Source of the DNA: Candidatus Baltobacteraceae bacterium
GTDB taxonomy: Bacteria > Vulcanimicrobiota > Vulcanimicrobiia > Vulcanimicrobiales > Vulcanimicrobiaceae
DNA: 64,000 bases
Reading direction: 5' to 3'
NCBI GenBank assembly: GCA_036489885.1
Contig: DASXEW010000003.1
Span: 1,550,001-1,614,000, forward strand
Shown here: positions 8,575 to 31,114 of the stretch, one piece after another
Layout: each line of letters begins with the position of its first letter
Numbering within the stretch: position 1 is the stretch's first letter
Program-made: the position numbers and the translations under genes
Notes under the pieces: generated by a model
Database searches by the model: none
What the model was told of the DNA's origin: nothing
What the model saw: the letters and a program-made list of their open reading frames with translations, nothing else

Positions 8575-8577
8575 CTG

Positions 8578-8640: not shown

Positions 8641-8677
8641 CTCGAGCCGCTTCTGCCCCATGGGCCGACCCACCCAC

Positions 8678-8705: not shown

Positions 8706-8716
8706 AGAGGGGATAT

Positions 8717-8777: not shown

Positions 8778-8783
8778 AGCCAT

Positions 8784-10882: not shown

Positions 10883-12387
10883 AGGCGTTCCTTATGTATC
10901 CCGACCGCGATTTTGATATCGAACACCCACTTCCGTGGAATGCCTTGGACCTCGCGCAGGATCTCGAGCTCAACGCGCTCTTCACGGCGATGAGTCGCGA
11001 AGATAAATTTCTCTACGAAGTTACCCGACGTGCAGTGTTTTCGAGCATAAGCGATATCGCCACGATTCGGTATCGACAGGCGATTCTCGCTGACTGTCTA
11101 GCGTATCCCGACGCGCTGCGCCAGATGTATGCGATCGCTGTGGAGGCGGAAGAGGGGAAGCGGGGTTATTACTGGATATCGAGCGGCCGCTATCCGTCCT
11201 CGACGCTCACGGGCGCCGTTGGTTTGCTCGAGTTTTGCGTTGGCATCCTTCGAAAGCTCCGAAAAGCGACGGATGCTTATCATGAAGCCTTTCGTTCTCC
11301 CGGGTTCAAGACGTTGTGCGCGACGCTTAAGGAAGAGCTCTCCGATGACTACTTCGATGTCGTCGAAGCACACCTCAAGCGTCTCAAGTTCAAGGGCGGC
11401 GCGCTGATCAGTGCGCGGCTCGGCGCCGGTAACAAAGGCGTCGATTACATCTTACGGCGCCCGAATCACCCCGACCGTAATTGGTTTGAACGGCTCTTTG
11501 GGGGAGGGCCGGACGCTTACTCTTACCAGCTACATCCGCGCGACGAGGCTGGGGCGCGTGCGCTCTCCTCGCTCCGCGACCGCGGCCTCAATCGCGTCGC
11601 GAACGCAGCGGCGCAGGCCGCCGACCATATTTTGAGTTTTCTCAAGTTATTGCGCGCAGAACTCGGGTTCTATGTCGCGTGCCTCAACGTGCACACGAAA
11701 CTCATCGAGAAAGGCGAGCCGATCTGCTTCCCTGACGTCAGCGAGAGTAACATCCGGCGGCATTGGTTTAAAGGTCTTTACGACGTCTCCTTGGCGCTGA
11801 CGATTTCCGATCGCGTCGTTGGCAACGACGTGGACGCCGATGATAGCGAAGTCGTTGTTGTGACGGGTGCCAATCGCGGCGGAAAGTCCGTATTTCTGCG
11901 CAGCATAGGCCTCGCACAACTAATGATGCAGTGTGGTATGTTCGTCGGAGCGGAAGCGTTCGCGGCAAACACGTGCGTTGGCCTCTACACACACTACAAA
12001 CGCGAAGAAGACTCGTCGATGACGCACGGAAAGTTTGCGGAAGAAATATCACGCATGGACGAGATTGCAGGATACTTGCACCCGAATTCGCTGGTGCTGT
12101 TCAACGAGTCGTTCGCCGCAACCAATGATCGTGAAGGTTCCGAGATCGCACGACAAATCGTAGCTGCGTTGCTCGAAAAACGCATCAAGATATTCTACGT
12201 GACCCACCTCTATAAATTTGCTCGAACTCTTTGGGAAGAAAAGGCGCACAAGGCGACGTTCTTGCGCGCCGAGCGTCAATCGGATGGTTCACGTACGTAC
12301 AAACTTGCCGTCGGTGAGCCGCTTGAGACAAGTTTTGGTGAAGACCTCTACAACGAAATCTTCCTCGCAGAGAAACAGCGCACATGA
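10879..12387 (+). CDS. MutS-like ATPase B
   Basis: A 502-aa MutS-like ATPase. Walker A is VVTGANRGGKSVF near residue 330; Walker B is SLVLFNESFAATN, again with Asn where Asp is usual, followed by IKIFYVTHLYKFA, which supplies the conserved H-loop threonine/histidine. The N-terminal half is helical and lacks a mismatch-recognition domain. The start is the GTG at 10879, overlapping the previous stop as GTGA; an upstream frame extension would overlap MutS-like A by nearly 200 bp. Both ATPases share the Asn-Glu Walker B, suggesting an old duplication. Fluoride-riboswitch-controlled MutS-like genes have, as I recall, been noted in crcB-motif surveys. Confidence 0.8.
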   Translation: MKAFLMYPDRDFDIEHPLPWNALDLAQDLELNALFTAMSREDKFLYEVTRRAVFSSISDIATIRYRQAILADCLAYPDALRQMYAIAVEAEEGKRGYYWISSGRYPSSTLTGAVGLLEFCVGILRKLRKATDAYHEAFRSPGFKTLCATLKEELSDDYFDVVEAHLKRLKFKGGALISARLGAGNKGVDYILRRPNHPDRNWFERLFGGGPDAYSYQLHPRDEAGARALSSLRDRGLNRVANAAAQAADHILSFLKLLRAELGFYVACLNVHTKLIEKGEPICFPDVSESNIRRHWFKGLYDVSLALTISDRVVGNDVDADDSEVVVVTGANRGGKSVFLRSIGLAQLMMQCGMFVGAEAFAANTCVGLYTHYKREEDSSMTHGKFAEEISRMDEIAGYLHPNSLVLFNESFAATNDREGSEIARQIVAALLEKRIKIFYVTHLYKFARTLWEEKAHKATFLRAERQSDGSRTYKLAVGEPLETSFGEDLYNEIFLAEKQRT

Positions 12388-13008
12388 GCGGCCCAACAAC
12401 CAAGGTACTGCTTGTGCGACACGGCCACGTCGAGGGCATCGATCCACCGCGATTTCGGGGTAGAAACGACCTACCGCTGACGCCCCTTGGAATCGTGCAA
12501 GCTGAGGCAGTCGGGAAGCGAATTGCAGAGCGATGGGAGCCGGCCTCAGTCTATGCAAGTCCTATCGGTCGCGCGATGCATACCGCCGAAGCAATTGCGC
12601 ATCCGCTTGGGCTTGCGGTGCGCCCCGAACCGGATCTCATTGAGATTGATTACGGAGAGTGGACGGGCCTCGGACACGCCGACGTCCTTTCTTCATGGGC
12701 CACCGAAGCGAAGCTCTGGTTCCGGGCGCCCGATGTCGCACATATTCCGGGAGGCGAGGTACTTAGCGACGTTTCCCGCCGCATCTCACGCGGCGTGGGC
12801 AATCTCGTACGCCGGCACCGCAACCATCGTGATCGTCGGCCACGAGGCGATCAATCGCGTTGTCTTACTGTACGCACTGGGATTGCCGTTGTCCCATTAT
12901 TGGCGCTTTCGTCAAGGCCCGTGCTGCATCAACGAGCTGGATTTCGAACCCGACAAATGTATCGTCTGCTCGATCAACGATATGTCGCACGTTCCGGTCC
13001 GTGCGTAG
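12384..13008 (+). pseudogene. phosphoglycerate mutase-like histidine phosphatase, frameshifted
   Basis: The first part reads as a histidine phosphatase: the catalytic VLLVRHGHVEG at the N-terminus, then YASPIGRAMHTAEAIA and the acidic IDYGEWTG. After about 12775-12800 this frame loses all similarity and ends at 13058. The homologous C-terminal half continues in the +1 frame (TIVIVGHEAINRVVLLYALG, then LDFEPDKCIVCSINDMSHV) and stops at 13008. The two catalytic histidines are thus in different frames. A one-base insertion or two-base deletion near GTTTCCCGCC would explain it. It may be a recent mutation, an assembly error or recoding. The start overlaps the MutS-like B stop (ATGA). Confidence 0.8.
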
Positions 13009-13014
13009 GCGTTC

Positions 13015-14190
13015 CTACATTCGGTGTTGTGGTCGGAGTCTTCGGGCGACGCGGATGAATATCGGAACGGCGATAAGCTGCAGCGCGACGCAAAAGGCGA
13101 CGAGATCGACTAGCGATCGCGTATAGAAAATGCCAATCACGAGGCTTCCGGCGAACCAAGCGACTCCATACGCAGCGGTGAAAATGCCAAACGCAGACGC
13201 TCGGTGCTCGCGCGCAACCATCGTTGATACGGCTGCCGGTATGATCGATTCGTGGACGCCCATGCTCATGCCCCAGAGAGCCGATCCGAGAACGCTGAGC
13301 CAGAACGATCCGAGAAAAACCAGCGGTGTCGCGCATGCGGCGACGACGGTTAAGGGGACGAGAATAACAAGTCCGAAACGATCGAATAACCGTCCAAACG
13401 TGAGTGAACCGGCGCCACTTGCCGCCATCGCGATCGCGTAGAACACGGGCAGGAACCCATTCGAGACGGGGAGTTCTGTATGAAAGCGATACGAGATCAG
13501 CGAGAAATCCGCGAACCCCGCAGCGACGAGAATCGCTCCGCTCAGATACAGCCAAAAAAGTGGCGGGATTCCCCGCGTACGAACTTCGAGCGTTCGTGAC
13601 GCCAGGGTTTCTGGTCGCGGATATATGATGCGCGCGATACACAGAAGAAATAGACAGGTTAGAGCCGGCACAACGAGGACGGCGAATGCTTGTTGGTATG
13701 CACCTTGCGTTGCGAGTATTGCTGCAATGATCAACGGGCCAGCAAGTGCACCGGATTGATCGAGGGCTTCATGGACTCCGAAGGCCCAGCCGTAGCCAAT
13801 CTCTTCAGCCGCAACCGACAACATCACATCGCGCGGCGGATTGCGCGTCGCCCTCCCGACGCGCTCAAGTATGATGAGCGCCGCAGCTTCTTGCCACGTG
13901 CGAGCGAACGCGAGCAATGGAACGGCGACCATTTGAACGGTATATCCCACGATCGTAATGGGCCAGAATTTCCGCGTGATCTCGCTTAGGGTGCCCGAAG
14001 CCAAGCGCCAGGCGTGGCCTAATAGTTCACCGACCCCTGCGACGGCACTGATCGTGAATGCACTCGCACCGAGCAATCCGAGAAACGGTCCTGTAATGCT
14101 GCGCGCGCCTTCATACGTGCAATCGGCGAAAAAGCTCAAGACGCCGATGACAAGGACGAACTTTAGCGACGCGCGTTGTCGCGCGAGCAC
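13015..14190 (-). CDS. MFS transporter behind a fluoride riboswitch
   Basis: A 391-aa membrane protein with about twelve hydrophobic segments and the layout of the major facilitator superfamily. SFFADCTYEGARSITGPFLG near residue 25 recalls the NRE/nickel-resistance-type MFS group. It starts with GTG, three bases after the Nudix stop, so the two are co-transcribed. The transcript begins with riboswitch no. 3, which makes this protein a candidate for moving fluoride, a fluoride complex or a metabolite that becomes toxic under fluoride. That substrate idea is inference only; MFS proteins are not established fluoride channels. Its tail lies close to the convergent frameshifted phosphatase gene. 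Confidence 0.8.
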   Translation of the reverse strand: MLARQRASLKFVLVIGVLSFFADCTYEGARSITGPFLGLLGASAFTISAVAGVGELLGHAWRLASGTLSEITRKFWPITIVGYTVQMVAVPLLAFARTWQEAAALIILERVGRATRNPPRDVMLSVAAEEIGYGWAFGVHEALDQSGALAGPLIIAAILATQGAYQQAFAVLVVPALTCLFLLCIARIIYPRPETLASRTLEVRTRGIPPLFWLYLSGAILVAAGFADFSLISYRFHTELPVSNGFLPVFYAIAMAASGAGSLTFGRLFDRFGLVILVPLTVVAACATPLVFLGSFWLSVLGSALWGMSMGVHESIIPAAVSTMVAREHRASAFGIFTAAYGVAWFAGSLVIGIFYTRSLVDLVAFCVALQLIAVPIFIRVARRLRPQHRM

Positions 14191-14193
14191 CTG

Positions 14194-14655
14194 TTACTTT
14201 TTCAGTGGATGGTCAGTGTCGGTAATATTCCCGAGATAGAGGCCGCTCGTGTTCAGGTTGATCAGCGGCAAGAGTTTTGACGGCAGGAAGTCGTCATGAG
14301 CAATATTTGGATTAAGCCAGCCGACTTCGACGATGCCGTCGGCTCCGCGACGAAGCGTCGCGTCCTCCTCGATGATCTCGCACGCAAAACAGAGTTCCAG
14401 GCGCCGCGGATCCCAACGGCTTGAACCAATCTCGAAAACGAAGGCGAGATGGTCGACACGCACGCGATAGCCCGTCTCTTCGCCAACCTCACGAACCAGT
14501 GTCTCCTCAAGCGATTCGCCAATATTCGAAAAGCCACCAGGCAGTGTCCAAAACCGCTCGCCGCGACGGGCGTGACGTACGGAGAGTACAAATCCACGCT
14601 CATCTCGTACAACCGCAAGCGTACGGACACGTTGTTGTGTGACGGCTCCCTCCAT
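14194..14655 (-). CDS. Nudix hydrolase
   Basis: A 153-aa Nudix-fold pyrophosphohydrolase. The Nudix box GX5EX7REUXEEXGU is complete: GFSNIGE...REVGEETGY, around residues 41-63, providing the Mg2+-binding glutamates. Members hydrolyse nucleoside diphosphates linked to another moiety; the target here is not evident. It sits between a 49-aa ORF (4 bp upstream) and the MFS gene (3 bp downstream) in a fluoride-riboswitch operon. The ATG at 14655 follows GCA; the preceding ORF's stop is adjacent, consistent with coupled translation. Confidence 0.85.
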   Translation of the reverse strand: MEGAVTQQRVRTLAVVRDERGFVLSVRHARRGERFWTLPGGFSNIGESLEETLVREVGEETGYRVRVDHLAFVFEIGSSRWDPRRLELCFACEIIEEDATLRRGADGIVEVGWLNPNIAHDDFLPSKLLPLINLNTSGLYLGNITDTDHPLKK

Positions 14656-14812: not shown

Positions 14813-14882
14813 GACTCCATTTCGCACAAAGTTTCGCGTAGGAGTCATCAGTCCGAAGACGCTTGCGGCGAACTCCATCGCC
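14813..14882 (-). promoter_or_regulatory. fluoride riboswitch no. 3, before small ORF-Nudix-MFS operon
   Basis: On the minus strand from 14882: GGCGATGGAGTTCGCC, then GCAAGCGTCTTCGGACTGATGACTCCTA in two parts ending at 14839. The loop GGAGTT pairs with GACTCC, a compensatory change relative to no. 1 (GGAGCT with GGCTCC), which supports a real pseudoknot. GACTCC is also complementary to GGAGTC (14813-14818), the ribosome site of the 49-aa ORF. The expression logic is the same as in the other five. Confidence 0.88.
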
Positions 14883-14952
14883 GGGGTGGCTTCTGCTTAT
14901 CCGCGAGTCCGATGGTTCCCCCATGCGGGCGCTTCGTTCTCTTGCCGATTTC

Positions 14953-14981: not shown

Positions 14982-15002
14982 ACTACTGGCGCGAGGCGCG
15001 CT

Positions 15003-15076
15003 GGGCGATGGATCCCGCCCTCGAGACACGTTCTCGAAAACCGCGGCACGCTAATGGGTCCTCCACGCTTGGAGGA
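15003..15076 (+). promoter_or_regulatory. fluoride riboswitch no. 4, before dynamin-like operon
   Basis: GGGCGATGGATCCCGCCC at 15003 is followed by an extra hairpin (TCGAGA...TCTCGA), then AAACCGCGGCACGCTAATGG and GTCCTCC. GGATCC can pair with GGGTCC for the pseudoknot. The core CTGATG reads CTAATG, so this copy is slightly divergent. The platform hairpin TCCTCCA/TGGAGGA (15059-15076) contains GGAGG, the ribosome site seven bases before the GTG at 15083. Confidence 0.82.
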
Positions 15077-15082
15077 TTTCAC

Positions 15083-16792
15083 GTGTCACTAGGTCGAGCG
15101 GCAGCCGCACTCCGCGAGATAGAACGCATCGCATGGCGACATGCCGATGAAGCGACCGCCATTGAAACACGTTCGCTGATCAATCGTTCGACGGGTAATG
15201 AGTTGACGGTGCTCATCGCCGGGCAGTTCAAGCGCGGAAAGAGCACGTTAATCAACGCGCTTATTGGCAACGATATTCTACCGACCGGCGCTCTGCCGTT
15301 GACGTCGATTGCGACGAGCGTTCACTTCGGTACGGAAAGCGCGATTGTCAGCTATCGTGATGGAGGGTCATCGCAAATCGACATCCGCGATCTTGGCGAG
15401 TATGTCACTGAAGCTGGAAATCCGGAAAACGTTCGCGCGGTAAGTGCAGTCGACGTTCACGTGCATGCCGAGTTCTTGCACGGACTTCGCATCGTCGATA
15501 CGCCCGGAGTTGCTTCGGCATTCGTGCACAATACGGATGCCGCACGTAGTGCCCTCCACGAAGCCGATGTCGCGATACTCGTCGTCGGTCCCGAACCACC
15601 GATTGGTGAGGCAGAGATTGTGTTCGCGAAAGAGGTTCGCGACGCTTCGGAGCGTCTTTTCGTTGTGTATAACAAAGCAGACTTGCTACCCGGGCAAGAG
15701 CGCGAGATCATTGGGTTTACGCAGCGCCAACTTGACGCGGCGCTCGGCTTTGAGCCCCGAATCTTTGCTCTCAGCGCTCGGGACGCGCTTTCTGCCGCTC
15801 AAGATGGACGATCAGATTCGCGATTTATGGAATTCGTTGCAGCGCTCACAGCCTTTCTCGATCGCAACCGGGATCTTGTTCGAGAGCGGTCGATTGCGCG
15901 AAAAGCTGCTGGCCTGGCGCGTCGCCTTCAATTCCTGATCGCGCTCCGCCGCCACGCTCTACGTTTACCGCTAAACGAACGCGAAGCGATGCGTCTGCGA
16001 TTCGATACACTCGTAACCGAACTTCGAGATCGTAGCCATGAACTGGCCGGCTCTCTCGATCAGGCGCTCAAAGAGATCGGCGAAAGCGTCGACCGTCACT
16101 TGGGAGAATGTTTCCAGCGATCGTGTGTCGCTCTTGCTACCGAATTGCGCTCGCTCGCGCATGATGGTGAGATCGATGCCTTCGAGCGCGCGCTTGAAAA
16201 GGGCGCGGCGACCAGGACAGGCGCCTGGGCAGACGACATCACGGAACTCTTGAATGAGCGAATGAAGGCAAATGCTGAGCGATTGCTTCGTCAAGTCGAT
16301 CGTCTCGAAAGCGAAATTCTTGCGCTCGGTGCAGGCCTCCTGAAAGCTGATCTCCCACTCCCTACGTCGCGAGCATCGACATTCGACGTTCCGGGAATCT
16401 CATTCCCGAAGGAGCGAATCGTAGACACGGGTTTAGAGATTCTCGTGCGCAGCCTCGCGCAACTCTTGCCACGAAGCTTGCGCTCGCATCTTCTCGCGCG
16501 TCGTCTTTCGCAACGCGTGGAAGAAACGCTCGGTGCGCGTCGTGGCCGACTGCGATACGCCGGGCGACGAGAAGCCGAACGTAACGTGCAAGAGCTTGGC
16601 CATCTTGCGACGATGCGACTCGCCGCTGCAGAAGGCGCAATTCGCCGTAGTTTGAGTACCCCAACAGATGCAAGCGATGACGACATTCGCGTTCTGTTGC
16701 GCAGTTGTGAGCATGACGAGGCGACGGCTGCTGCGCTGGCGGCTGATCTGGATGCTATTCCGTTAGAGGTCGAACAGGTTGTGAGCCGATGA
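15083..16792 (+). CDS. bacterial dynamin-like GTPase
   Basis: A 569-aa large GTPase. The G1 P-loop is GQFKRGKS (residues 47-54), the G2 threonine lies in LTSIATSV, G3 is DTPGVAS, and G4 is NKAD. A long helical C-terminal region with a hydrophobic patch near residues 430-480 (ILVRSLAQLLPRSLRSHLLA) could be a membrane paddle. Such proteins tubulate or repair membranes. The GTG at 15083 is preferred over the ATG at 15008, because the latter lies inside the riboswitch and only the GTG has a ribosome site (GGAGG). The next gene overlaps by 4 bp. Fluoride control is inferred from the leader; GTPases are also inhibited by fluorometal complexes, an intriguing link without proof. Confidence 0.82.
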   Translation: MSLGRAAAALREIERIAWRHADEATAIETRSLINRSTGNELTVLIAGQFKRGKSTLINALIGNDILPTGALPLTSIATSVHFGTESAIVSYRDGGSSQIDIRDLGEYVTEAGNPENVRAVSAVDVHVHAEFLHGLRIVDTPGVASAFVHNTDAARSALHEADVAILVVGPEPPIGEAEIVFAKEVRDASERLFVVYNKADLLPGQEREIIGFTQRQLDAALGFEPRIFALSARDALSAAQDGRSDSRFMEFVAALTAFLDRNRDLVRERSIARKAAGLARRLQFLIALRRHALRLPLNEREAMRLRFDTLVTELRDRSHELAGSLDQALKEIGESVDRHLGECFQRSCVALATELRSLAHDGEIDAFERALEKGAATRTGAWADDITELLNERMKANAERLLRQVDRLESEILALGAGLLKADLPLPTSRASTFDVPGISFPKERIVDTGLEILVRSLAQLLPRSLRSHLLARRLSQRVEETLGARRGRLRYAGRREAERNVQELGHLATMRLAAAEGAIRRSLSTPTDASDDDIRVLLRSCEHDEATAAALAADLDAIPLEVEQVVSR

Positions 16793-17184
16793 TCTTCAAG
16801 CGCCTATTGCGATTGGACTCACGAGAAGACGTTGTCAGCACTGACGACGATCCGCAGCCATTGCGGGCACGTATCGCGGATTTGGAGGAGCGTCTTCGCT
16901 CATCCGAGGCAATGGTACGGGAGCGGAGCGAAACGCTGTACGATTTACAACGGCAGTATTCAGCAGAGCATTTTGACTATGCTGAATCGATGCGAAATCT
17001 CAATATCGAACGCATGCGTAACGCCGGCGCATATGCTGCGAAAGATATTATAGTTTCACGGTACCAATTGTTACAGACGCGCATCGCAGCCCTCAAACGC
17101 CGGCTTCGCGTCCATGAACACGTCGACGACCTGCGTGAAGATGACGCCCCAATCCTCATCGAGGAACCGCATTCGGAAGGTTAG
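16789..17184 (+). CDS. coiled-coil protein paired with dynamin-like GTPase
   Basis: A 131-aa protein starting in an ATGA overlap with the dynamin-like gene. Residues 25-60 (ARIADLEERLRSSEAMVRER) and 85-110 (YQLLQTRIAALKRRLRVHEH) have heptad-like patterns and are likely coiled coils. The ends are acidic and probably disordered. There is no signal peptide or catalytic motif. Tight coupling to the GTPase suggests a partner or adaptor. I do not recognise a family. Confidence 0.7.
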   Translation: MIFKRLLRLDSREDVVSTDDDPQPLRARIADLEERLRSSEAMVRERSETLYDLQRQYSAEHFDYAESMRNLNIERMRNAGAYAAKDIIVSRYQLLQTRIAALKRRLRVHEHVDDLREDDAPILIEEPHSEG

Positions 17185-17197
17185 AAAGGGGTCTCAA

Positions 17198-17292
17198 GCG
17201 TGGTGGAGTCCGCGCGCGGCACGCGCCGCAAACCGCCGATCGGCCGATGACTCCTGACCCCGTGTATTTGATGACCCACGGTCAGGAGAGTC
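17198..17292 (+). promoter_or_regulatory. fluoride riboswitch no. 5 (divergent copy), before Hyf/Ehr-like operon
   Basis: The P1 region is degenerate (GCGTGGTGGAGTCCGCGC instead of GGCGATGG...), followed by an extra GC-rich hairpin. It then returns to consensus: AAACCGCCGATCGGCCGATG, then ACTCCT. The loop GGAGTC pairs perfectly with GACTCC. GACTCCTGACC (17249-17259) can alternatively pair with GGTCAGGAG (17280-17288), which contains the AGGAG five bases before the TTG at 17294. The platform match is strong even though the aptamer's 5' half is atypical. Confidence 0.72.
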
Positions 17293-17293
17293 G

Positions 17294-18253
17294 TTGCTGA
17301 GCCTTTCACCGCTTGCCGTGCAGGCTGCTCAAGTCCTCACGGTAACGCTACTGTCGCCGCTTTTGAGTGGCGTCATTTCGCGCACTGAAGCGATGCTTGC
17401 CGGCAAGCGCGGGCCTTCGGTATTTCAGCCTTATCGCGACATTATCAAGTTTTTCCGTAAGCAGCGGCTGTTGCCCGAGCATGCGTCGTGGGTGTTTCGG
17501 GCCGCACCATACGCGGCGTGCGGAGCGTATGCAACGTTCGCGACCCTCATCCCCGTGCTTACGACGTATCCGCTACCCGGTGCTACGTACGGCGATATTC
17601 TCGGTAGCGCTTTTGTTTTCGCATTTGGATCGTTCGTCACCGCGCTTGCAGCCATTGACGGTGCCTCCCAATATACGTCGATCGGCGCCAGTCGAGCGAC
17701 GATGGTTGGCGTTCTCGTCGAGCCGACGCTGATTTTTGTCTTTTTCTCCGTCGCGTTCATCACCGGGACGGACCTCCCGTACGCGCTCAATGCGACGCTA
17801 CGTGCGTCGGCTGCCGACGTGTTGCGTCCTGCGCACGTGCTCGCGACCGCCGCATTCTTTATGATGATGTTGGTCGATACCGGACGGATTCCGATCGAGA
17901 GCTCGTCAGCGACGATTGAGTTCGGCATGATCGATGATGCTCGTCTCTTCGAGCACAGCGGCCCCGAGATGGCGCTCTTCAAGTGGGGCAGCGCCATGAA
18001 GCAGTTCCTGCTCTATACCGTTTTCGTCAATGTGCTGCTTCTTCCAATGGGGTTGTCGTCGACGGGGAGTCTTCAAACGGTTCTCTTAGCTATCGTGCTT
18101 CTTTTTGTGAAGATGTGCATTGTCGCATGCGCAGTCGTCATAATTGAAACCACGTTTGCGAAGCTTCGTTTGTACAAGATTACCGAATTCATCGCCACGG
18201 GTCTCCTCGTCGCCGTCCTGGCGGTCTTCGCGTACGCAGTGGGATTCGGCTAG
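17294..18253 (+). CDS. HyfC/NuoH-like membrane subunit of an Ehr-type complex
   Basis: A 319-aa membrane protein of the NuoH/HycD/HyfC family, the subunit that connects the peripheral arm to the membrane arm. AGKRGPSVFQPYRDIIKFFR near residue 35 and VDTGRIPIESSSATIEFGMI near residue 195 are the family's conserved cytoplasmic loops. About eight transmembrane helices are visible. The start is a TTG at 17294 with AGGAG five bases upstream; that site is part of the riboswitch no. 5 platform. It heads a six-gene operon whose members overlap by 1-4 bp. Confidence 0.88.
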   Translation: MLSLSPLAVQAAQVLTVTLLSPLLSGVISRTEAMLAGKRGPSVFQPYRDIIKFFRKQRLLPEHASWVFRAAPYAACGAYATFATLIPVLTTYPLPGATYGDILGSAFVFAFGSFVTALAAIDGASQYTSIGASRATMVGVLVEPTLIFVFFSVAFITGTDLPYALNATLRASAADVLRPAHVLATAAFFMMMLVDTGRIPIESSSATIEFGMIDDARLFEHSGPEMALFKWGSAMKQFLLYTVFVNVLLLPMGLSSTGSLQTVLLAIVLLFVKMCIVACAVVIIETTFAKLRLYKITEFIATGLLVAVLAVFAYAVGFG

Positions 18254-18924
18254 TGCCACTGCACCACTTATCGGTTCCGGAAGCCGTCGCGGGCACAATC
18301 GCAGCGCTGTTGCTGCTAACGCAGCTTGCATTGTTCCGATCGGTCGTGCTATCCGAGCTGATCACGCTCTACGCAGTTCAGTCGCTATTTGTCGCGTGCA
18401 TCTGCCTCGATGTGGGTCTTGTCGCCGGCGCATGGGATCTTATCGCGCTTGCGATCCTGACGTTTCTTTTCAAAGTAATCGCGCTCCCGATCTACATGCG
18501 CAGGTTGATGAACGGCGTTTCGACGCGGGTCGAAATCCCGAGCAAGATCAATGTGCTGCTTTCGTTGCTGATCGCAGCGGCACTCGTTGGAATTGGATGT
18601 CTGACGGCCTCACAGTTGCCACTCAAGACCGGCGCCTTTCTTCCAATCGCCGACCTCGCAACGATGCTCTCGATCGTCTTTATTGGGTTTCTCGTTGCAA
18701 TATTACGGCCGAACGCATTCGCGCAAGTCATCGCATTTCTCACACTTGAGAATGGCGTTTTCTTTGGAGCAGTGACGCTTGCTCCCGGACAGCCGTTTGT
18801 GGTTGGCATCCTCGTGCTCTTTGACGTCCTCGTAGCCGTCGTTGTCTTTGCCGTATTAGTGCGCATTCTTGTCGCGATTCGATCGAGTGCTGCAACGGCG
18901 CAGCTTCAGGAGCTCATTGGATGA
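18253..18924 (+). CDS. HyfE-like membrane subunit
   Basis: A 223-aa, almost entirely hydrophobic protein with six to seven transmembrane helices. Size, position between HyfC-like and HyfF-like genes, and motifs such as LYAVQSLFVACI and YMRRLMNGVSTRVEIPSKIN match HyfE. HyfE has an N-terminal part related to NuoK, the small antiporter-like subunit. It starts with GTG in a one-base overlap (TAGTG) with the previous gene. It would help form the ion path of the membrane arm. Confidence 0.82.
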   Translation: MPLHHLSVPEAVAGTIAALLLLTQLALFRSVVLSELITLYAVQSLFVACICLDVGLVAGAWDLIALAILTFLFKVIALPIYMRRLMNGVSTRVEIPSKINVLLSLLIAAALVGIGCLTASQLPLKTGAFLPIADLATMLSIVFIGFLVAILRPNAFAQVIAFLTLENGVFFGAVTLAPGQPFVVGILVLFDVLVAVVVFAVLVRILVAIRSSAATAQLQELIG

Positions 18925-20363
18925 TACTTATCATCGCAATGATCGCCATACCAGCGGCACTCGCCATCATCAGTATCGTCGTCCCGTCACGCATTTCGGG
19001 CCCGCTGACCGCGCTCGGTGGACTGTGCACCGCAGCGTGCATCATCGCCGCCGACTTGGGGGGCGCTTCCGGCGTTCGCGCTCCCGACGCGCTTTCTGCG
19101 ATCTTTCTGTTGCCGGTAGCCATCATTTACGGAACGGTTGGATTGTATACACACTGGTACGTGCGAGCTGAGAGCCCCGCGAATTCCGAGGGCGAGCGCT
19201 ATCGGCGCGAATTCCTTGCACTCACTAACGCGTTTGCATGCAGCGAAATAATCGTCCCGCTCTTGACGAACATGGGCGGCCTGTGGGTGGCGCTCGAAAC
19301 GACTACGATTCTCTCGGCCTTACTCATCCGGTTACAGGGAACGGCTGCCGCACTCGAGGCTGCGTGGAAGTATATCTTGATCGCGTCCTGCGGTCTCGCG
19401 TTCGGCCTTGTCGGCGTCGTCCTACTCTACGTTGCCGGTATTGGACCGCTCGGCGACCATCATATCCCGCAGTGGTCTGCGTATATTGGTGCCGCAGCAC
19501 ATCTGAACCCTGACGCCGTCCGGCTCGCATTCATTTTTGCACTCATCGGATTCGGCACGAAGATGGGTCTAGCGCCAATGCATGCGTGGCTGCCGGACGC
19601 GCACGGAGCAGGCCCCACGCCGACGAGCGCAATGCTTTCCGGCGCGCTTCTTTCGGACGCGCTCTATGCGATTCTCAGGTTTGCTGCTATCGCAAATCTC
19701 GCGGTGGGCCATGGCCTCAGCCACATCCTGTTCTTCGTCGTTGGTTTGATCTCGCTGTTTCTCGCCGCATTCTTTCTCTTGCAGCAACGTGACATCAAAC
19801 GTATGCTCGCGTATTCGAGCATCGAGCACATGGGAGTTATCGCGTGCGGTCTCGCGTTTGGAGCTCCGCTCGCCGTCGCGGGAGCGTTGCTTCACGCAAT
19901 CAATCACTCCGCGTCCAAATCGCTCGCATTTTTCGCCGCGGGACGGCTGACGGAACGCTACGAAACGCGCGAGATCGCCGGAATTCGTGGAGGCATTGCG
20001 ACGCTACCGGTTTCGGGGACGCTCTTTGCGCTTGCGGGTCTTTCACTCGCCGGACTTCCGCCGTTCGGGATCTTCCGCAGTGAGCTCATGATCCTCGGCG
20101 GCGGCTTCCAATCTGGCTCTTGGATCCTCGCGATCGTTGTTGCGCTACTGCTGGCCGTTGCATTCGCCGGTATTCTCCGCTGGGTAACCACAACGAGTGC
20201 CGGTTCTGCCGAGGGGGAGATTCATCGTGGCGAACGCTTCGGTGCGGCTATCTATGCGATGTTGCTGGGATTCATCGTCGTGCTTGGATTGGGTTTGGTC
20301 GTTCCACCGCAACTCACGCAACTACTTGAGCGCGCCATTGCGATTGTGGGGCAAGCATCGTGA
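18921..20363 (+). CDS. HyfF-like proton-translocating subunit
   Basis: A 480-aa NuoL/M/N (Mrp antiporter)-family subunit. Key ion-path residues are kept: Glu in LWVALETTTILSALL, Lys in FGTKMGLAPMHAWLPDAH, and Lys in DIKRMLAYSSIEHMG. Around fourteen hydrophobic helices fit the family. It overlaps both neighbours by 4 bp. The intact Glu/Lys pattern argues that the complex still moves protons or Na+, even though its redox subunits are stripped of cofactors. Confidence 0.87.
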   Translation: MILIIAMIAIPAALAIISIVVPSRISGPLTALGGLCTAACIIAADLGGASGVRAPDALSAIFLLPVAIIYGTVGLYTHWYVRAESPANSEGERYRREFLALTNAFACSEIIVPLLTNMGGLWVALETTTILSALLIRLQGTAAALEAAWKYILIASCGLAFGLVGVVLLYVAGIGPLGDHHIPQWSAYIGAAAHLNPDAVRLAFIFALIGFGTKMGLAPMHAWLPDAHGAGPTPTSAMLSGALLSDALYAILRFAAIANLAVGHGLSHILFFVVGLISLFLAAFFLLQQRDIKRMLAYSSIEHMGVIACGLAFGAPLAVAGALLHAINHSASKSLAFFAAGRLTERYETREIAGIRGGIATLPVSGTLFALAGLSLAGLPPFGIFRSELMILGGGFQSGSWILAIVVALLLAVAFAGILRWVTTTSAGSAEGEIHRGERFGAAIYAMLLGFIVVLGLGLVVPPQLTQLLERAIAIVGQAS

Positions 20364-21769
20364 TCGCGCGGTCAAATGCGGTGGAAGCGGGCGAACGCGC
20401 GATGAGGCGCGTCGCTGAAGGAGCGCGTTTCGTGTGGCTCTTTTGCGAAGCCGGTCATGCCGATATGATGCTCCACTATGTGACCGATCTCGATGGCAAG
20501 CTCGAGTTCGCGAGTGGCGTCATTCCAGAATCCGGAGAAGTCGCTTCGATTGCGGGAGTTGTCCCCGCGGCGCGTTGGCACGAGCAAGAAGTCCACAACC
20601 GGTTCGCTGTTCGTTTCAATGGCTCTACCGATGATCCACCGATTATAAAATCGCCTGAGCAAGACGCCGAGAAATTGCGCCGTGCGCTCGGGGACGAAGT
20701 TTCGACCGTCCTATACGGTCCAGTTCGTTCGGGCATTGTCGAGTCAGCGTGTTGGATCATCGAAACCGCCGGCGAGGATTTCATTGCCGTACATCCCTCA
20801 ATGTTTTTTAAACATCGGGGACTCGAAAAGCGGTTCGAGGGGGCGGCGCTCGAGTTCGCTCCCCTCATCGCCGAACACATCTCTGGTGTCACACCGTCGA
20901 GTCACGCTACGGCGTTCTGCCGCGCGGTCGAGGCGGTTTGTGGGATCGACGTGCCGCCACGCGCCCGTGCGGCACGTACGATCCTCGTCGAACTCGAGCG
21001 CATCCATCAGCATCTCGATTCGCTCGCAAAGCTGGCGGACGACGGATCGCTCTCAATAGGATCGGCCCAAACCTTCGCTGCGAAAGAACGTGTGCACCGA
21101 CTGCTCTCCGAGGCGACGGGTCACCGGTTCGGGCGAGGTTCAATCTGCGTTGGTGGAACGCGTTCCGATATCTTTGGCACGCTGCGAACAGCTGCCGAAC
21201 GGGCACTCGACGTCGTCGAACGGGAGGCGCTCTCCGTTTTGCGTGGACTTTTTGGAACACAATCGCTGCTCGATCGCCTGATTGGAACGGGTCGCCTATC
21301 GCGAGAGACTATGCAGGCGTATGGCGGTGTCGGTCCGGTGGCGCGCGGCAGCGACGTCGTCAACGACGCTCGCTTAACGGATGGCTGGCTCTACATGCCC
21401 CTCGATGCGTCGGCTGCGATCGAACTGAATGGCGACGCGATGGCGAGGGCGCGTATCAGACAGGCGGAAATCCGCCAATCGTTTCGACTCGTTCGCGAAG
21501 CACTCGACGCTTCGCCCACCGGCGCGTCGCGCCTGGATCAAGAACACATTCGGGGCAAGGGCCGCGCTCACGCGCGCGTTGAGTCACCACAAGGCGAGCT
21601 GCTTTATTTCGTGCACTATGATGATGATGCGCTGGTGCGTGTCGCCGTGCGTTCGGCCTCTTTCGCAAACTGGCCACTTTTCGTTCCATCGCTGCCTGGG
21701 AACATTTTCACAGACTTTTCGTTTATTGAGCACTCGTTCGGGCTTATCCAATCGGAGACCGATCGATGA
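20360..21769 (+). CDS. HyfG/NuoCD-like large subunit lacking all [NiFe] ligand cysteines
   Basis: A 469-aa fusion of a NuoC-like 30-kDa domain (PAARWHEQEVHNRFAVRF near residue 75) and a hydrogenase-large-subunit/NuoD-like domain (YGPVRSGIVESACWIIET, FKHRGLEKRFEG). The N-terminal nickel motif, normally ICGIC, reads ISGVT (HISGVTPSSH). The C-terminal DPCxxCxxR-like motif reads GLIQSETDR. All four cysteines that hold Ni-Fe are therefore gone, and it cannot be a [NiFe] hydrogenase. Such subunits are known from Ehr (energy-converting hydrogenase-related) complexes of unknown function. Confidence 0.87.
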   Translation: MIARSNAVEAGERAMRRVAEGARFVWLFCEAGHADMMLHYVTDLDGKLEFASGVIPESGEVASIAGVVPAARWHEQEVHNRFAVRFNGSTDDPPIIKSPEQDAEKLRRALGDEVSTVLYGPVRSGIVESACWIIETAGEDFIAVHPSMFFKHRGLEKRFEGAALEFAPLIAEHISGVTPSSHATAFCRAVEAVCGIDVPPRARAARTILVELERIHQHLDSLAKLADDGSLSIGSAQTFAAKERVHRLLSEATGHRFGRGSICVGGTRSDIFGTLRTAAERALDVVEREALSVLRGLFGTQSLLDRLIGTGRLSRETMQAYGGVGPVARGSDVVNDARLTDGWLYMPLDASAAIELNGDAMARARIRQAEIRQSFRLVREALDASPTGASRLDQEHIRGKGRAHARVESPQGELLYFVHYDDDALVRVAVRSASFANWPLFVPSLPGNIFTDFSFIEHSFGLIQSETDR

Positions 21770-22518
21770 GCAACTGGATTGGGCGTGGACTCCGGCGCGG
21801 CATTCTGACGACGAAGTATCCGTTTCAAGGAGACGCGATGCCCGAACGGTATCGCGCACGTCCAGTTGTGTTTCCTGGTGCGACGAACGAGCACATCGAA
21901 CGGGGCGCCGCGGCCTGTCTTTCAGGTGCGATTCAACGCAGCGACGGAGGGGCAATCATCGACATGCAGCGCTGCTTTCAGTGCGGCGAGTGCGCACGTG
22001 TCGCGCCGGAAGCATTTACGTTTACAAATGATTTCGAGCTTGCGCTTACGGGCGATAGCATCGAGATGGTGCGCGCGGAGCTACGACGCCGCACCAAGGC
22101 GCTCGGTCGATCGATCCACATACGACATGTGGACTGCGGCAGCGACGCATCGTGCGAACAGGAGCTGCAAGCGATTTTCAATCCGTTCTATGATGCGAAT
22201 CGGCTGGGCATTTTTTTGACCGCGTCGCCGCGGCACGCTGACATTCTCGTCGCGACAGGGGTAGTCACGCACGCGATGGTTGAGCCGCTACGTCGCACGT
22301 ACGAGGCGATGCCATCGCCAAAAGTCGTCATCGCGCTGGGAAGTGCCGCGTCGTCGGGGACGATCTTTGATGACGACGATGTGGCAGGGCCAGTCGACGG
22401 GTTTATTCCCGTCGACGTGAAGGTGCCGGGTACGCCACCAGCTCCGCTCACGATTATCCATGGGCTTTGGGTTGCGCTCGGTCATGTCACCGCGCGTCGC
22501 CCGGGAGCCACGTCATGA
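21766..22518 (+). CDS. fused HyfH-HyfI-like iron-sulfur subunit, degenerate
   Basis: A 250-aa protein joining a ferredoxin-like N-terminus to a NuoB/HyfI-like C-terminus. In the ferredoxin part, only the cysteines of one cluster remain: CFQCGEC (near residues 69-75) plus the Cys of ACLSGAI. The fourth residue of the second motif is Ala (RVAPEAF), so one of the usual two [4Fe-4S] clusters is lost. In the NuoB-like part (RHADILVATGVVTHAMVEPL) the four proximal-cluster ligands read Asp, Cys, Ala and Thr (CGSDASCEQE, GSAASSG, PGTPP). An electron path to the membrane arm therefore seems absent. Confidence 0.82.
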   Translation: MSNWIGRGLRRGILTTKYPFQGDAMPERYRARPVVFPGATNEHIERGAAACLSGAIQRSDGGAIIDMQRCFQCGECARVAPEAFTFTNDFELALTGDSIEMVRAELRRRTKALGRSIHIRHVDCGSDASCEQELQAIFNPFYDANRLGIFLTASPRHADILVATGVVTHAMVEPLRRTYEAMPSPKVVIALGSAASSGTIFDDDDVAGPVDGFIPVDVKVPGTPPAPLTIIHGLWVALGHVTARRPGATS

Positions 22519-24506
22519 CGTCGATTAATATCGCGCTTGTTGCGCTCGCGCTCGCGATCGCCGGAATGCTTGCGGCGCTCTTCGTTTCCGCAGCGATTGG
22601 ACGTGCGCTCGGCTTTCTTGCGGTGGCACTTGCTGGGTTGGCGGCACTCATCGCCGGTGTTGCGGCGCTCGTGACCGGTAGCGCGCAGGCCGTCGGAAAC
22701 GTCGATCTTCACGTCGTCGTTCGACTCGATGCAACATCAGGATTTTTTGTCGGTATTATCGGTGCAATCGCGATCGCCGTAGGCCTCTTCGGTCTTGGAG
22801 GTCGTTCGAGCGATGAGCGGCGCACTGGGCGAACTGCCGCATCAACGGCGTGCGCAATCCTGCTTGCGTCGCTGCTTGTATGTCTCGCAGACGACGTCTT
22901 CCTATTCTTGTTTGCGTGGGAACTGCTGGCCCTCGCATTCTACTGGGCAATCACTTTCGCAGGCACGGACGAAAACGCGGAACTCGCCGGCTATTTCACG
23001 CTCACTCTCACGCACGTCGCAGGCGCAGCGCTCTTCGTTGCGCTGCTCGTTCTCGCTCGCAACGGAACGTCGGTGTCAGGCGCTCTCGGCGCTGCGCAGA
23101 CGATGCCGGAATTTGCTCGAGGTGCGATCTTTGTGCTCTTGCTGATCGGTTTCGGAGCGAAGATCGGTTTGCTACCGCTGCAGGGGTGGCTTCCATACGG
23201 CTATCGGGCCGCACCATCAGTGGTTTCAGCGCTGATGGCGGGAGGAGCGCTCAACGTCGGATTCTACGGTATCGTCCGCTTTGTCTTTGGCCTAGGAGGC
23301 GGAACGCCACTGTGGTGGGGGCTGCTTCTGGCGAGTCTCGGTGCGCTTGGCGCAATCCTCGGGATCGCGTGGGCCGTCGCGCAACGCGATGCGCGGACGC
23401 TTGCAGCCTACTCAAGCATTGAAAATTCGGGCGTTATCGTTGCCGGGCTCGGGATCGCACTTGTGGGGAAAAGTGTCGACCTGCCGCTGCTTGTGGGAGT
23501 TGGGGTCGCATCAGCATTCTTCCAGATTGCAGCTCACGCATTCGCGAAATGCACCCTGTTCCTCGCATGCGCTGCGCTCGAATCGCGAGCAGGATCAACA
23601 GACTTCGATCAACTCGGCGGTATTGCGCGCAGGATGCCATATACGGCCGCGGCTGCGATTGCTGCGGCATTTTCGCTGGCAGCAATTCCGCCGCTTGGCG
23701 GTTTCGCGAGCGAATGGCTGACACTCGAATCGTTCATGCAGGCATTCCGCTCGGGTAACGCTGCAGTCGACGTTACCTTTGCGCTCTGCGCTGCGGCGAT
23801 TGGTGTCGCAGCCGGCCTTGCTGTCGTCGCGTTCGTAAAGTTCGCAGGGATTGGATTCCTCGGTGCGGCGCGTAGTGCGGAAGCATCGGAGGCGCGTGAA
23901 GGTCATTTCCTCTGGCCTTTCGCCTCGTTGCTTTCGGCCGTCGCCGTCTTCGCGCTCGGCATCCTCGCGCCGCAGTATCTCTCGCTTATCGCCGCCCCGA
24001 TCGATCAGCTCTCTGGAACGTCGACCGTCGCCTCGATGCTTGCAGCGCCGCCGGTCGTGCAGCCGGCCTTCCACGGATTCTCTTCGGTTTCGCCACTTGG
24101 CCTCGGTGTTTTGATTCTCTGCTTTGCCCTGGTCTTTGCGATCATCGCGCGCTTGTTCGCGCGGCCGCGCTTGCGATCTGCGGAAGTCTGGACGTCGGGT
24201 GAAGCATATCGTTCGTGGACGCAATACGGTGGAACGGGATTTGCGAACCCGACGCGGGTGATCTTCGACGTTGGGATTCGGACCGTTCGGAGTATTGAGG
24301 AAACGGAAGACGTGGGCATCCGCTACGAGAGCAAGACTCGACAGTTCTTTGATGTCGCATTCTATCGCTGGATAGCGACCGCTGCACTCTGGATCAGTAG
24401 CGTCGTACGGCGGACGCAATCGGGCGTCATCGGCACATATCTAACGTATATCCTCGTCTTTACGATCGTTTTGCTTGTTCTTTATCCATCCTTACGACAC
24501 TGGTAG
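22515..24506 (+). CDS. HyfB-like proton-translocating subunit
   Basis: A 663-aa NuoL/HyfB-family membrane subunit, last gene of the complex. It has about sixteen hydrophobic helices. The Glu of the ion path lies in FLFAWELLALAFYW and the Lys in GFGAKIGLLPLQGWLP; the later Lys is replaced (QRDARTLAAYSSIEN has Arg/Thr). The C-terminal part (AEVWTSGEAYRSWTQYGGTG, then KTRQFFDVAFYRW) is typical of HyfB. The ATG at 22515 overlaps the previous stop as ATGA; an upstream extension of the frame is not needed. Confidence 0.87.
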   Translation: MTSINIALVALALAIAGMLAALFVSAAIGRALGFLAVALAGLAALIAGVAALVTGSAQAVGNVDLHVVVRLDATSGFFVGIIGAIAIAVGLFGLGGRSSDERRTGRTAASTACAILLASLLVCLADDVFLFLFAWELLALAFYWAITFAGTDENAELAGYFTLTLTHVAGAALFVALLVLARNGTSVSGALGAAQTMPEFARGAIFVLLLIGFGAKIGLLPLQGWLPYGYRAAPSVVSALMAGGALNVGFYGIVRFVFGLGGGTPLWWGLLLASLGALGAILGIAWAVAQRDARTLAAYSSIENSGVIVAGLGIALVGKSVDLPLLVGVGVASAFFQIAAHAFAKCTLFLACAALESRAGSTDFDQLGGIARRMPYTAAAAIAAAFSLAAIPPLGGFASEWLTLESFMQAFRSGNAAVDVTFALCAAAIGVAAGLAVVAFVKFAGIGFLGAARSAEASEAREGHFLWPFASLLSAVAVFALGILAPQYLSLIAAPIDQLSGTSTVASMLAAPPVVQPAFHGFSSVSPLGLGVLILCFALVFAIIARLFARPRLRSAEVWTSGEAYRSWTQYGGTGFANPTRVIFDVGIRTVRSIEETEDVGIRYESKTRQFFDVAFYRWIATAALWISSVVRRTQSGVIGTYLTYILVFTIVLLVLYPSLRHW

Positions 24507-24516
24507 CTGGTTGCTA

Positions 24517-24693
24517 TCATTTCCCGAGAGCGAAGACGAGAATTGCAGCGGTAAGAGCGACGAACGCGCCGGTAGCGATGTCACCAAGGGCTCCGACGAG
24601 CCGAGTTTCTAGCTCGTATCGAGCATGTACGCAGGGCCAATCCTGATCACACAGGGTGCCCTTGTCCGTCAGATGCGGTCGGCGCGATGGCAA
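24517..24693 (-). CDS. 58-aa single-pass membrane protein controlled by a fluoride riboswitch
   Basis: A 59-codon ORF starting at the TTG at 24693 and ending in TGA at 24517, convergent with the HyfB-like gene. GGAGGA lies seven bases upstream and is the 3' arm of the riboswitch no. 6 platform hairpin. The N-terminal 30 residues are polar; the last 25 (GDIATGAFVALTAAILVFAL) form one transmembrane helix. It is far shorter than CrcB/Fluc (about 125 aa, four helices). I do not recognise a family. It is the only gene that this riboswitch could serve. Confidence 0.65.
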   Translation of the reverse strand: MPSRRPHLTDKGTLCDQDWPCVHARYELETRLVGALGDIATGAFVALTAAILVFALGK

Positions 24694-24700
24694 TGGCGTG

Positions 24701-24776
24701 TCCTCCAGCGGGAGGAGCCATCAGCATTGCTGCGGTTTCCAAGATGCAAAAATCTCAGGGGCGGGATCCATCGCCC
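24701..24776 (-). promoter_or_regulatory. fluoride riboswitch no. 6, before a lone small membrane protein
   Basis: On the minus strand from 24776: GGGCGATGGATCCCGCCC, an extra hairpin (GAGATTTTTGCATCTTGG region), AAACCGCAGCAATGCTGATG, and GCTCCT at about 24713. The pseudoknot GGATCC/GGCTCC has one mismatch, so it is less perfect than the others. The platform TCCTCC-CGCT-GGAGGA (24701-24716) is a perfect hairpin holding the ribosome site of the TTG at 24693. Confidence 0.85.
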
Positions 24777-24807
24777 AGGCATTCCCTCGCGAGGAACGCC
24801 TGCCACC

Positions 24808-28346: not shown

Positions 28347-29639
28347 TTAGCCGGATTTGATGAAGAGCGGTGCGATGGTCTCGTAGACCGACAGCAGTGT
28401 CAGAGCACCGACGATGATCGCCGTAGCCCACGCGATGATGTTGAAGGCGAGACTGTTTACGTGCTCGCCCATCAGGCTGCGCTTGTTCACCATGATCAGC
28501 ATGAAGACGAGCAAGAACGGCAGCAGAATTCCGGAGACGATCTGCGAGATCAGGATGACGCTCAGCAGCGGAACTCCCGGCAGGAGCACGAGACCAACGC
28601 CGATCGCGATGACCGTTGCGTACGCGGTGAAGAACACGGGCGCGTCGCGGAAGCGATTGTCGACGCCGGCTTCAAATCCGCCGGCCTCGCAGATATAGTA
28701 CGCGGTCGACAGCGGCAGGATCGACGCCGTGAAGATGCCGGCGTTCAGAATGCCGAGCGCAAAAAGGACTTCCGCGAACTCGCCTGCGAGCGGCTTGAGC
28801 GCTATCGCAGCATCAGACGCTTGATTGATTGCAATCGGCGCGAGGTGCGGATGCGATGCGTTGAAAACGAAAATCGTGGCTGCCGTGCACAGAATCATGA
28901 AGAACGACATGAAGTCCGTTACGAAGCAGCCGAACACGACATCGATTCGCGATAGCGCGTAGTCGCGGACGCGAACGCCCTTTTCTACGATCGCGGCCTG
29001 CAGATAGAAGCACATCCACGGCGAGATCGTGGTTCCGACGAGCGCGATGACCATCCAGAGGTAACCCGAATCGGTCTGAAAGCTCGGAACGAAGAAGCCG
29101 CGCCAGACATCGGGCCAATGCGGCTGCGATTTCAGGCCGGATATGACGTAAGAAAAATAAAGCGCGGACGAAACCAGGAAGACGCGTTCGGTAATTTTAC
29201 GATTGGCGCGCAGAATCAAGAAGAAGACCAGCAATCCCACGATCGGTACGGCGAGGAATCGCGAGACATGGAAGATCTCGGCCGCGGCGGCTACTCCCGC
29301 AAACTCTGCGGCTGTCGTGAATACGTTCGATGAGACGAAGGCAAGGCCGAGTATCGCCGTCCAACGGACGCCGAAATTCTCGCGGATCAGTCCCGAGAGA
29401 CCCTTGCCGGTCACCGCGCCCATGCGCGCGGCCATCTCTTGCACGACGACGAGCGCAATCGTGATCGGTATGAGGACCCAAAGAATCTTGTAACCGTACT
29501 GCGCGCCGGCTTGAGAATATGTCGCAATGCCGCCGACGTCGTTGTCGGCGCTGGCGGTAATGATGCCGGGCCCGACGATTGCGAGCAGTCCGAGCAGGGC
29601 TGGAAGGAAGCCGCGTCTGCGTGTGAGCGAGACAGCCAT
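28347..29639 (-). CDS. NRAMP-like divalent metal transporter, probably Mg2+
   Basis: A 430-aa NRAMP/SLC11-fold membrane protein with eleven helices. The helix-1 motif, normally DPGN, reads DNDVGG. The helix-6 motif, normally ending in MPH with a Met that selects transition metals, reads GTTISPWM, so the selective Met is Ser. Loss of that Met is a mark of NRAMP-related Mg2+ transporters. The gene starts immediately after the stop of the MgtE-type sensor gene, and the transcript begins with an M-box Mg2+ riboswitch; together these strongly suggest Mg2+ as substrate. Confidence 0.88.
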   Translation of the reverse strand: MAVSLTRRRGFLPALLGLLAIVGPGIITASADNDVGGIATYSQAGAQYGYKILWVLIPITIALVVVQEMAARMGAVTGKGLSGLIRENFGVRWTAILGLAFVSSNVFTTAAEFAGVAAAAEIFHVSRFLAVPIVGLLVFFLILRANRKITERVFLVSSALYFSYVISGLKSQPHWPDVWRGFFVPSFQTDSGYLWMVIALVGTTISPWMCFYLQAAIVEKGVRVRDYALSRIDVVFGCFVTDFMSFFMILCTAATIFVFNASHPHLAPIAINQASDAAIALKPLAGEFAEVLFALGILNAGIFTASILPLSTAYYICEAGGFEAGVDNRFRDAPVFFTAYATVIAIGVGLVLLPGVPLLSVILISQIVSGILLPFLLVFMLIMVNKRSLMGEHVNSLAFNIIAWATAIIVGALTLLSVYETIAPLFIKSG

Positions 29640-30935: not shown

Positions 30936-30990
30936 CGTGATACACCTCCTCTACGTCGAGTTTTGGCACCACACGCTATAGAGTCAAATG

Positions 30991-31103
30991 ATCTCAGCCG
31001 CGTTAGGTACCGCCTTGATTCGACGGTGCCTGGTCACCCATTGGGGTCTCTCGACCTTTCCGGGCAGCGGCGTGTCTTCGTGTGGACGCCTCACCTAACG
31101 AGG
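30991..31103 (-). promoter_or_regulatory. M-box (ykoK) Mg2+ riboswitch
   Basis: On the minus strand from 31103: CCTCGTTAGGTGAGGC, then GCCGCTGCCCGGAAAGGTCG, AGAGACCCCAATGGGTGACC, AGGCACCGTCGAATCAAGGC and GGTACCTAACGCGGCTGAGA. This is the M-box consensus in order: the TTAGGTGAGGC entry, CCGCTGCC, the AGGTCGAGAGACC-type hairpin, CCAATGGGT, and a closing helix. M-boxes shut off Mg2+ import genes when Mg2+ is high. The gene starts 56 bases beyond it. No clear terminator is seen, so control may act on translation. Confidence 0.92.
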
Positions 31104-31114
31104 AATCCTTACTT

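Follow-up and report, generated by a model that had tools for sequence, protein, structure and literature searches.

The stretch analysed here, 64,000 nucleotides of a Candidatus Baltobacteraceae genome (GCA_036489885.1, contig DASXEW010000003.1, positions 1,550,001 to 1,614,000; hereafter the window), carries at 17294-24506 a run of six overlapping plus-strand genes that encode a complex resembling hydrogenase 4 (Hyf) and stand behind a fluoride riboswitch. In this complex, the nickel site and the proximal Fe-S cluster of the related hydrogenases have been lost, and the ion-path residues of the membrane subunits have been kept. The complex may act as a fluoride-induced, redox-independent cation/H+ exchanger of the Mrp type, a function for which we see roughly an even chance.

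Loss of the metal sites and retention of the ion path

The subunits were identified by Pfam and NCBIfam profile searches of the open reading frames (ORFs) of the window. In the gene order C-E-F-G-HI-B, the Pfam matches were NADHdh, Oxidored_q2 (weak), Proton_antipo_M, Complex1_30kDa with 49kDa, Oxidored_q6 with a Fer4 remnant, and again Proton_antipo_M, and the top NCBIfam matches were hydrogenase-4 subunits B, E, and F, each below its equivalog cut-off (Table 1). The ATG at 22512 is a more likely start of the HyfB-like gene than the TTG at 22467. An earlier note made from the letters of the window (the original prediction) had named the same six overlapping HyfC-, HyfE-, HyfF-, HyfG-, HyfHI-, and HyfB-like genes, and the profile matches bear this out. 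It had also described the redox centers of the complex as stripped, with all nickel ligands and three of the four proximal-cluster cysteines gone. Alignment with E. coli HycE and HycG, both taken from the MG1655 record, confirmed these two losses: the Ni ligands C241/C244/C531/C534 of HycE are replaced by S/T/I/E in HyfG, and the proximal ligands C48/C51/C115/C145 of HycG read D/C/A/T in HyfHI, where one of four is kept. The description is nevertheless too broad, as the ligand set for one [4Fe-4S] cluster survives. HyfHI residues C51 and C70/C73/C76, in the ferredoxin-like part, form a complete set for one of the two original [4Fe-4S] clusters and are invariant across 13 aligned relatives. By its position in complex I numbering, this is presumably the cluster nearer N2.

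E. coli formate hydrogenlyase and hydrogenase 4 (Hyc, Hyf; 7z0s) are the best relatives of the large subunit in both sequence and fold, and are among the best of the small subunit. The profiles of the two subunits gave E. coli formate hydrogenlyase and the Pyrococcus membrane-bound hydrogenase (MBH) as the nearest solved relatives, and the predicted folds (mean predicted local distance difference test scores of 76 and 74) agree with this result, with 7z0s_E (HycE) as the top match of HyfG and 7z0s_G and 6cfw_J as matches of HyfHI. The Ni ligand set, however, was found in none of the riboswitch-linked large subunits readable at the motifs, nor in three plasmid operons of cultured strains; the Burkholderia protein is labelled "nickel-dependent hydrogenase", yet has SDTG at the Ni positions, and the Mycobacterium protein has EACG. 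The conservation of this loss across phyla rules out a chance loss of the motifs. Ligands were assigned throughout by one alignment-based criterion.

These observations bear on the possibility of a genuine formate hydrogenlyase, through which fluoride-stressed cells would shift to formate oxidation with the release of H2. The homology of the subunits speaks for it, and the genes have been so named (PMC2864571, PMC11139923), but every readable member lacks the four Ni ligands, the order C-E-F-G-HI-B differs from that of hyf and hyc, and neither FdhF nor HycB was found in the operon or the scanned neighboring genes, the rest of the genome not having been searched. Fluoride control is a further difference from the E. 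coli systems. The formate hydrogenlyase interpretation is refuted for the members examined, and its probability is negligible.

The Fe-S content varies among the relatives. Members from Burkholderiaceae keep both ferredoxin clusters and the proximal cluster, those of clade b and the deltaproteobacteria mostly the proximal cluster and one ferredoxin cluster, and the window's clade and most Actinobacteria one ferredoxin cluster only. Three actinobacterial operons (L118, L137, and L145) have no Fe-S cysteines in the HyfHI part and no riboswitch and keep the ion path; they are apparently cofactor-free. In the window's lineage and in Actinobacteria, Asp nearly always takes the place of the first proximal ligand. 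The possibility that an acidic D-E-D-S metal site generally replaces the proximal cluster was considered and rejected, as this pattern is confined to Actinobacteria and the window reads D-C-A-T.

The ion path is intact in the window, both in HyfB (E137, K217, E304, H342, K346, E401, and K443) and in HyfF (E146, K150, K214, H221, K293, E302, H329, K333, and E388). The first six HyfB residues occur in 74/74 rows of the riboswitch clade, all nine HyfF residues in 84/84, and nine HyfC residues are kept in 93/93 rows. The retention of the HyfF Glu/Lys pair and of most of the HyfB path, also part of the original prediction, holds clade-wide. We take HyfB E137/K217 and HyfF E146/K214 to be the Glu of transmembrane helix 5 and the Lys of transmembrane helix 7 of MrpA/D-type subunits. 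The ion-path residues of HyfB, HyfC, HyfE, and HyfF are almost invariant across the clade, while the Fe-S content ranges from three clusters to none. The lost metal sites and variable Fe-S content could also be expected of a decaying hydrogenase relic hitch-hiking in a fluoride island. This is scarcely credible, because the frames are uninterrupted, the ion path is invariant across phyla, and all six genes are under purifying selection, with a ratio of nonsynonymous to synonymous substitution rates (dN/dS) of about 0.04-0.25 in three pairs (about 0.1-0.25 for the peripheral subunits).

Fluoride control and spread of the operon

The window contains six matches to the fluoride riboswitch family RF01734, located between 8.6 and 24.8 kb, which are the only convincing ones in the 3.48 Mb genome. 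Those at 8587(-) and 14832(-) exceed the cut-off, and those at 8709(+), 24705(-), 17190(+), and 14995(+) are below it. The copy at 17190-17263, which ends 30 nucleotides before hyfC, scores 25.7 bits against a gathering score of 34 bits and was accepted as real because it is syntenic and covarying in relatives. The same syntenic, covarying plus-strand copy rules out an error of strand, with the matches over the cut-off lying on the minus strand before other genes. A close large subunit (55-63% identity) was present in 10/98 related genomes, each time with a riboswitch immediately before hyfC; G055 has its leader and its large subunit on separate contigs, and the G027 copy at this position was detected with R1, a covariance model whose training copies came from relatives of the window. 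In the 11 clade-a leaders, including that of the window, all 121 cells form standard pairs, compared with 37-55% in slid controls, and two-sided changes are present in P1, in the pseudoknot, and in the long-range A6-U38 (three such pairs). Their covariation score was reached by 0/500 shuffles. Over 143 distinct sequences, 96.7% of the cells of P1, P2, and the GGAGN/NCUCC pseudoknot were paired. Among the 127 distinct rows readable at both positions 6 and 38, 100 have A-U, 19 G-C, and 4 G-U; the G6/C38 sub-class, which replaces the tertiary A6-U38, includes the window copy and the leaders L039-L049, L053, L155, and L157. The aligned sequences indicate that A6-U38 to G-C is a compensatory change in the tertiary pair adjoining the ligand site.

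In riboswitches of this class, fluoride turns expression on. The 3' pseudoknot strand CUCCUGACC is predicted to pair with GGUCAGGAG, which contains the hyfC Shine-Dalgarno sequence; the fold of 17232-17300 has an energy of -27.7 kcal/mol (z -3.4), and equally stable folds were found in 0/200 shuffles. The same masking logic is seen in actinobacterial leaders, with CCUCUACG against CGUGGAGG. Since the pseudoknot strand pairs with the Shine-Dalgarno sequence, the modelled structure points to an ON switch acting on translation.

To determine the distribution of the operon, about 85,000 species genomes were scanned with the HyfC alignment; of the 290 relatives obtained, the best 80 were examined. 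These loci, among them contigs of metagenome-assembled genomes that may be mis-binned, belong to Eremiobacterota, Actinobacteria, Chloroflexi, Nitrospira, deltaproteobacteria, Pseudomonadota, and others; L082-L086 and L147 duplicate other loci of the set. All contigs that contain the genes show the order C-E-F-G-HI-B. Of these 80 loci, chosen by HyfC similarity alone, 72 have with R1 a coding-strand riboswitch no more than 420 nucleotides upstream of hyfC, and it precedes hyfC in 11/11 clade-a and 7/7 clade-b operons. Many of the actinobacterial R1 matches are weak alone (E 0.001-0.6), yet they lie at the same spot before hyfC. The leaders of L099, L112, L113, and L131 are riboswitch-like by eye, were not scored at hyfC by R1 or Rfam, and have not been counted. 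No riboswitch at all was detected at the three cofactor-free loci, and at L156 the nearest copy is 2.6 kb upstream. No match was detected near the operon at the 21 loci of the same relatives that carry either a [NiFe] hydrogenase or a riboswitch-free Ehr (energy-converting hydrogenase-related) operon. The window's genome provides a built-in control, a second Hyf-like operon (C4:29606-30820, L056) that has the complete set of four Ni ligands but lacks a riboswitch. The operon is also found on plasmids of Burkholderia cenocepacia and Caballeronia sp. SBC1, with the riboswitch upstream of hyfC, and of Mycobacterium branderi, with the riboswitch upstream of a NUDIX gene just before hyfC; the two annotated plasmid operons have genes for MutS, pyrophosphatase, HAD, enolase, or universal stress proteins as neighbors.

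A tree of 68 large subunits, obtained with a quick method, places the riboswitch-linked rows in one clade (Shimodaira-Hasegawa-like approximate likelihood ratio test support 97), apart from the [NiFe] rows and the riboswitch-free Ehr rows, the latter being the Ehr-like ones found here. Clade b, which keeps the proximal cluster, is firm (100), and the clade without this cluster is less so (94); L093_5683, a long row with the proximal cluster, is at the base of the riboswitch clade.

Possible function of the complex

Ehr complexes are group-4-like, have lost the Ni ligands and kept the antiporter-like subunits, and have in the literature no assigned function in Nitrospira and an untested one elsewhere (PMC6349859, PMC10284858). 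The window complex has the same group-4-like modules, lack of Ni CxxC motifs, and antiporter-like subunits, which supports the originally predicted Ehr-type complex tied to fluoride; the prediction did not include the widespread riboswitch-linked clade to which it belongs. The riboswitch-free Ehr operons (L073-L075 and L166) differ: their genes are ordered B-C-E-F-G-I, the proximal cluster is intact, and a fluoride switch is missing, whereas in the window's lineage the proximal cluster is also lost; L073-L075 branch outside the riboswitch clade. The core modules are homologous to those of complex I (NuoCD, NuoB, NuoH, NuoL/M) as well, but there is no NADH module and, in the window's lineage, no N2 cluster. 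With neither a Ni site nor a proximal cluster, electrons cannot reach the catalytic cleft of the window's complex, and redox pumping of the MBH or complex I type is therefore unlikely in it. The absence of an electron path to the catalytic site is the reason for reading the membrane module as a secondary exchanger. Mrp antiporters (PDB 6z16, 7d3u, 7qru), which share with the window complex a pair of antiporter-type subunits bearing the conserved Glu/Lys set and exchange ions free of redox reactions, serve as its functional model; they differ from it in that MrpB/E/F/G are absent from the operon and a NuoH-like HyfC and a peripheral arm are present.

According to the proposed mechanism, the pseudoknot strand of the unbound riboswitch would mask the hyfC Shine-Dalgarno sequence, and fluoride binding would free it, so that the complex is made. 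The membrane module of HyfB, HyfF, HyfE, and HyfC would then work as a secondary cation/H+ exchanger, and the peripheral arm may be kept as a scaffold or gate. The least certain step is the direction. The original prediction had H+ moving out to counter the acidification caused by HF, which is not supported: no sequence evidence bears on the direction, and thermodynamics without a redox drive favors H+ in and cation out. We lean to a downhill run of this kind, with Na+ or K+ as the cation, which would trade the HF-accumulating pH gradient for a cation gradient and keep the membrane potential that expels F-. The exchanger interpretation fits known fluoride biology, in which HF entry acidifies the cytoplasm, fluoride export needs the proton-motive force, and only one riboswitch-linked class is more common than the Na+/H+ antiporters (PMC11139923). 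For the direction, that review records that yeast acclimated to fluoride tolerates a lower internal pH.

Several observations weigh against such an exchanger. An exchanger gives no purpose to the retained [4Fe-4S] ligand set, which nearly all members conserve, the operon lacks the small Mrp subunits B, E, F, and G, and the fully cluster-free members, being also without a riboswitch, may do something else. Moreover, clade b and Burkholderiaceae keep the proximal cluster and could be redox-driven with some other acceptor. A redox-driven Ehr complex, in which a donor such as ferredoxin would pass electrons through the remaining [4Fe-4S] cluster to an acceptor in the former Ni cleft and pump as MBS/Mbx do, would account for the conserved ligand set, for the proximal cluster in clade b and the plasmid members, and for the conserved polar residues that line the large subunit. 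We consider it unlikely, though worth keeping in view, because neither the window's lineage nor Actinobacteria have kept the proximal cluster that would bridge to the cleft, its first ligand being nearly always Asp, three members have no cluster at all, and no electron-input subunit lies in or beside the operon.

The complex could also be a third class of fluoride exporter, a machine of the complex I type without redox chemistry that moves HF, or F- together with H+, and stands in for CrcB and CLC-F. Searches for CrcB and CLC-F in the window's genome, which is about 96% complete and yet has six riboswitches, found no known fluoride exporter; its sole CLC protein (C3:462876) reads GHGVP and is without CLC-F signatures. 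CrcB is also rarer in family genomes with the operon (5/15) than in the others (30/46; Fisher p 0.04, uncorrected for kinship). Still, the five operon-bearing relatives with CrcB do not support a strict replacement, the conserved channels are those of relatives that translocate Na+/H+ and H+, and an MFS protein under another riboswitch of the window is a simpler exporter candidate. Exporter activity of the complex is thus distinctly improbable.

Neighboring genes and significance

The features of the operon and of the surrounding fluoride island are listed in Table 1.

Table 1. Operon genes, regulatory elements, and neighboring genes in the window.
Feature	Position	Strand	Details
hyfC-like (NuoH fold)	17294..18253	+	319 aa, TTG start; PF00146 6e-30; identity 73-80% in close relatives
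hyfE-like (NuoK-like C-terminus)	18253..18924	+	223 aa; NF008556 1.2e-18, below cut-off; E166, D191 conserved
hyfF-like antiporter-type subunit	18921..20363	+	480 aa; PF00361 9e-50
hyfG-like large subunit (NuoC+NuoD)	20360..21769	+	469 aa; PF00346 7e-32; Ni ligands S/T/I/E
hyfH+hyfI-like fusion	21766..22518	+	250 aa; PF01058 3e-22; one [4Fe-4S] ligand set; proximal cluster lost
hyfB-like antiporter-type subunit	22512..24506	+	664 aa; PF00361 6e-42
Fluoride riboswitch RF01734, diverged G6/C38 variant, hyfC leader	17190..17263	+	25.7 bits
Predicted anti-Shine-Dalgarno hairpin	17251..17288	+	CUCCUGACC pairs with GGUCAGGAG before hyfC start
Weak fluoride riboswitch, just upstream of dynamin-like gene	14995..15070	+	20.4 bits Rfam; 26.9 bits, E 6e-5 with model R1
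Dynamin-like GTPase	15083..16792	+	PF00350 1e-23; near operon in many relatives
Coiled-coil protein	16789..17184	+	131 aa; recurs in Eremiobacterota fluoride islands; 43-67% identity in relatives
NUDIX hydrolase and MFS transporter	13015-14655	-	behind strong riboswitch 14832-14891(-)
ORF with hydrophobic C-terminal stretch	24517-24693	-	58 aa; behind riboswitch 24705-24784(-)

The dynamin family is also found in the fluoride islands of Burkholderia and Actinobacteria, and the dynamin-like and coiled-coil pair perhaps serves membrane repair. The MFS protein, a candidate fluoride exporter, has relatives (48-60% identity) close to the operon in several phyla. The CUCC strand of the riboswitch at 24705-24784(-) also pairs with a Shine-Dalgarno sequence; the small ORF behind it, beside hyfB, was rejected as a seventh subunit, having no relatives in the fetched loci. 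In the region 7840-13058, the genes driven by the divergent riboswitches at 8587(-) and 8709(+) are, on one side, a metallophosphoesterase and, on the other, a pair of MutS-domain ATPases with a histidine phosphatase. Neighbors of the operon include MutS pairs, phosphatases, enolase, and pyrophosphatase. A strong M-box (Mg2+) riboswitch (134 bits) is located at 30942-31109(-), on the same strand as an Nramp-family gene (28347-29639) that follows at some distance downstream.

Formate hydrogen lyase genes were listed behind this RNA motif in 2010 (Weinberg 2010, PMC2864571), which is very probably the same association as found here. A 2024 review places formate hydrogen lyase among the commonest riboswitch-linked enzymes and reads it as formate oxidation (PMC11139923), treating the genes as catalytic, whereas the members described here are without the active site. 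No paper joining Ehr complexes with fluoride or noting the missing active site was found in the open-access literature. The association itself is therefore already known; what appears new is the clade-wide loss of the catalytic site, together with the further Fe-S loss and the invariance of the ion path.

Summarizing, none of the members examined can be the "formate hydrogen lyase" named in the riboswitch lists, and this published reading is overturned. One branch of the Ehr-type complexes, listed as of unknown function, is given a physiological trigger, fluoride. The stepwise loss of Fe-S clusters with a fixed ion path constitutes a natural series for a direct test of the ability of complex I-type ion modules to function without electron transfer, and cultured carriers are available in Flexivirga caeni, Aciditerrimonas ferrireducens, and Caballeronia sp. 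SBC1.

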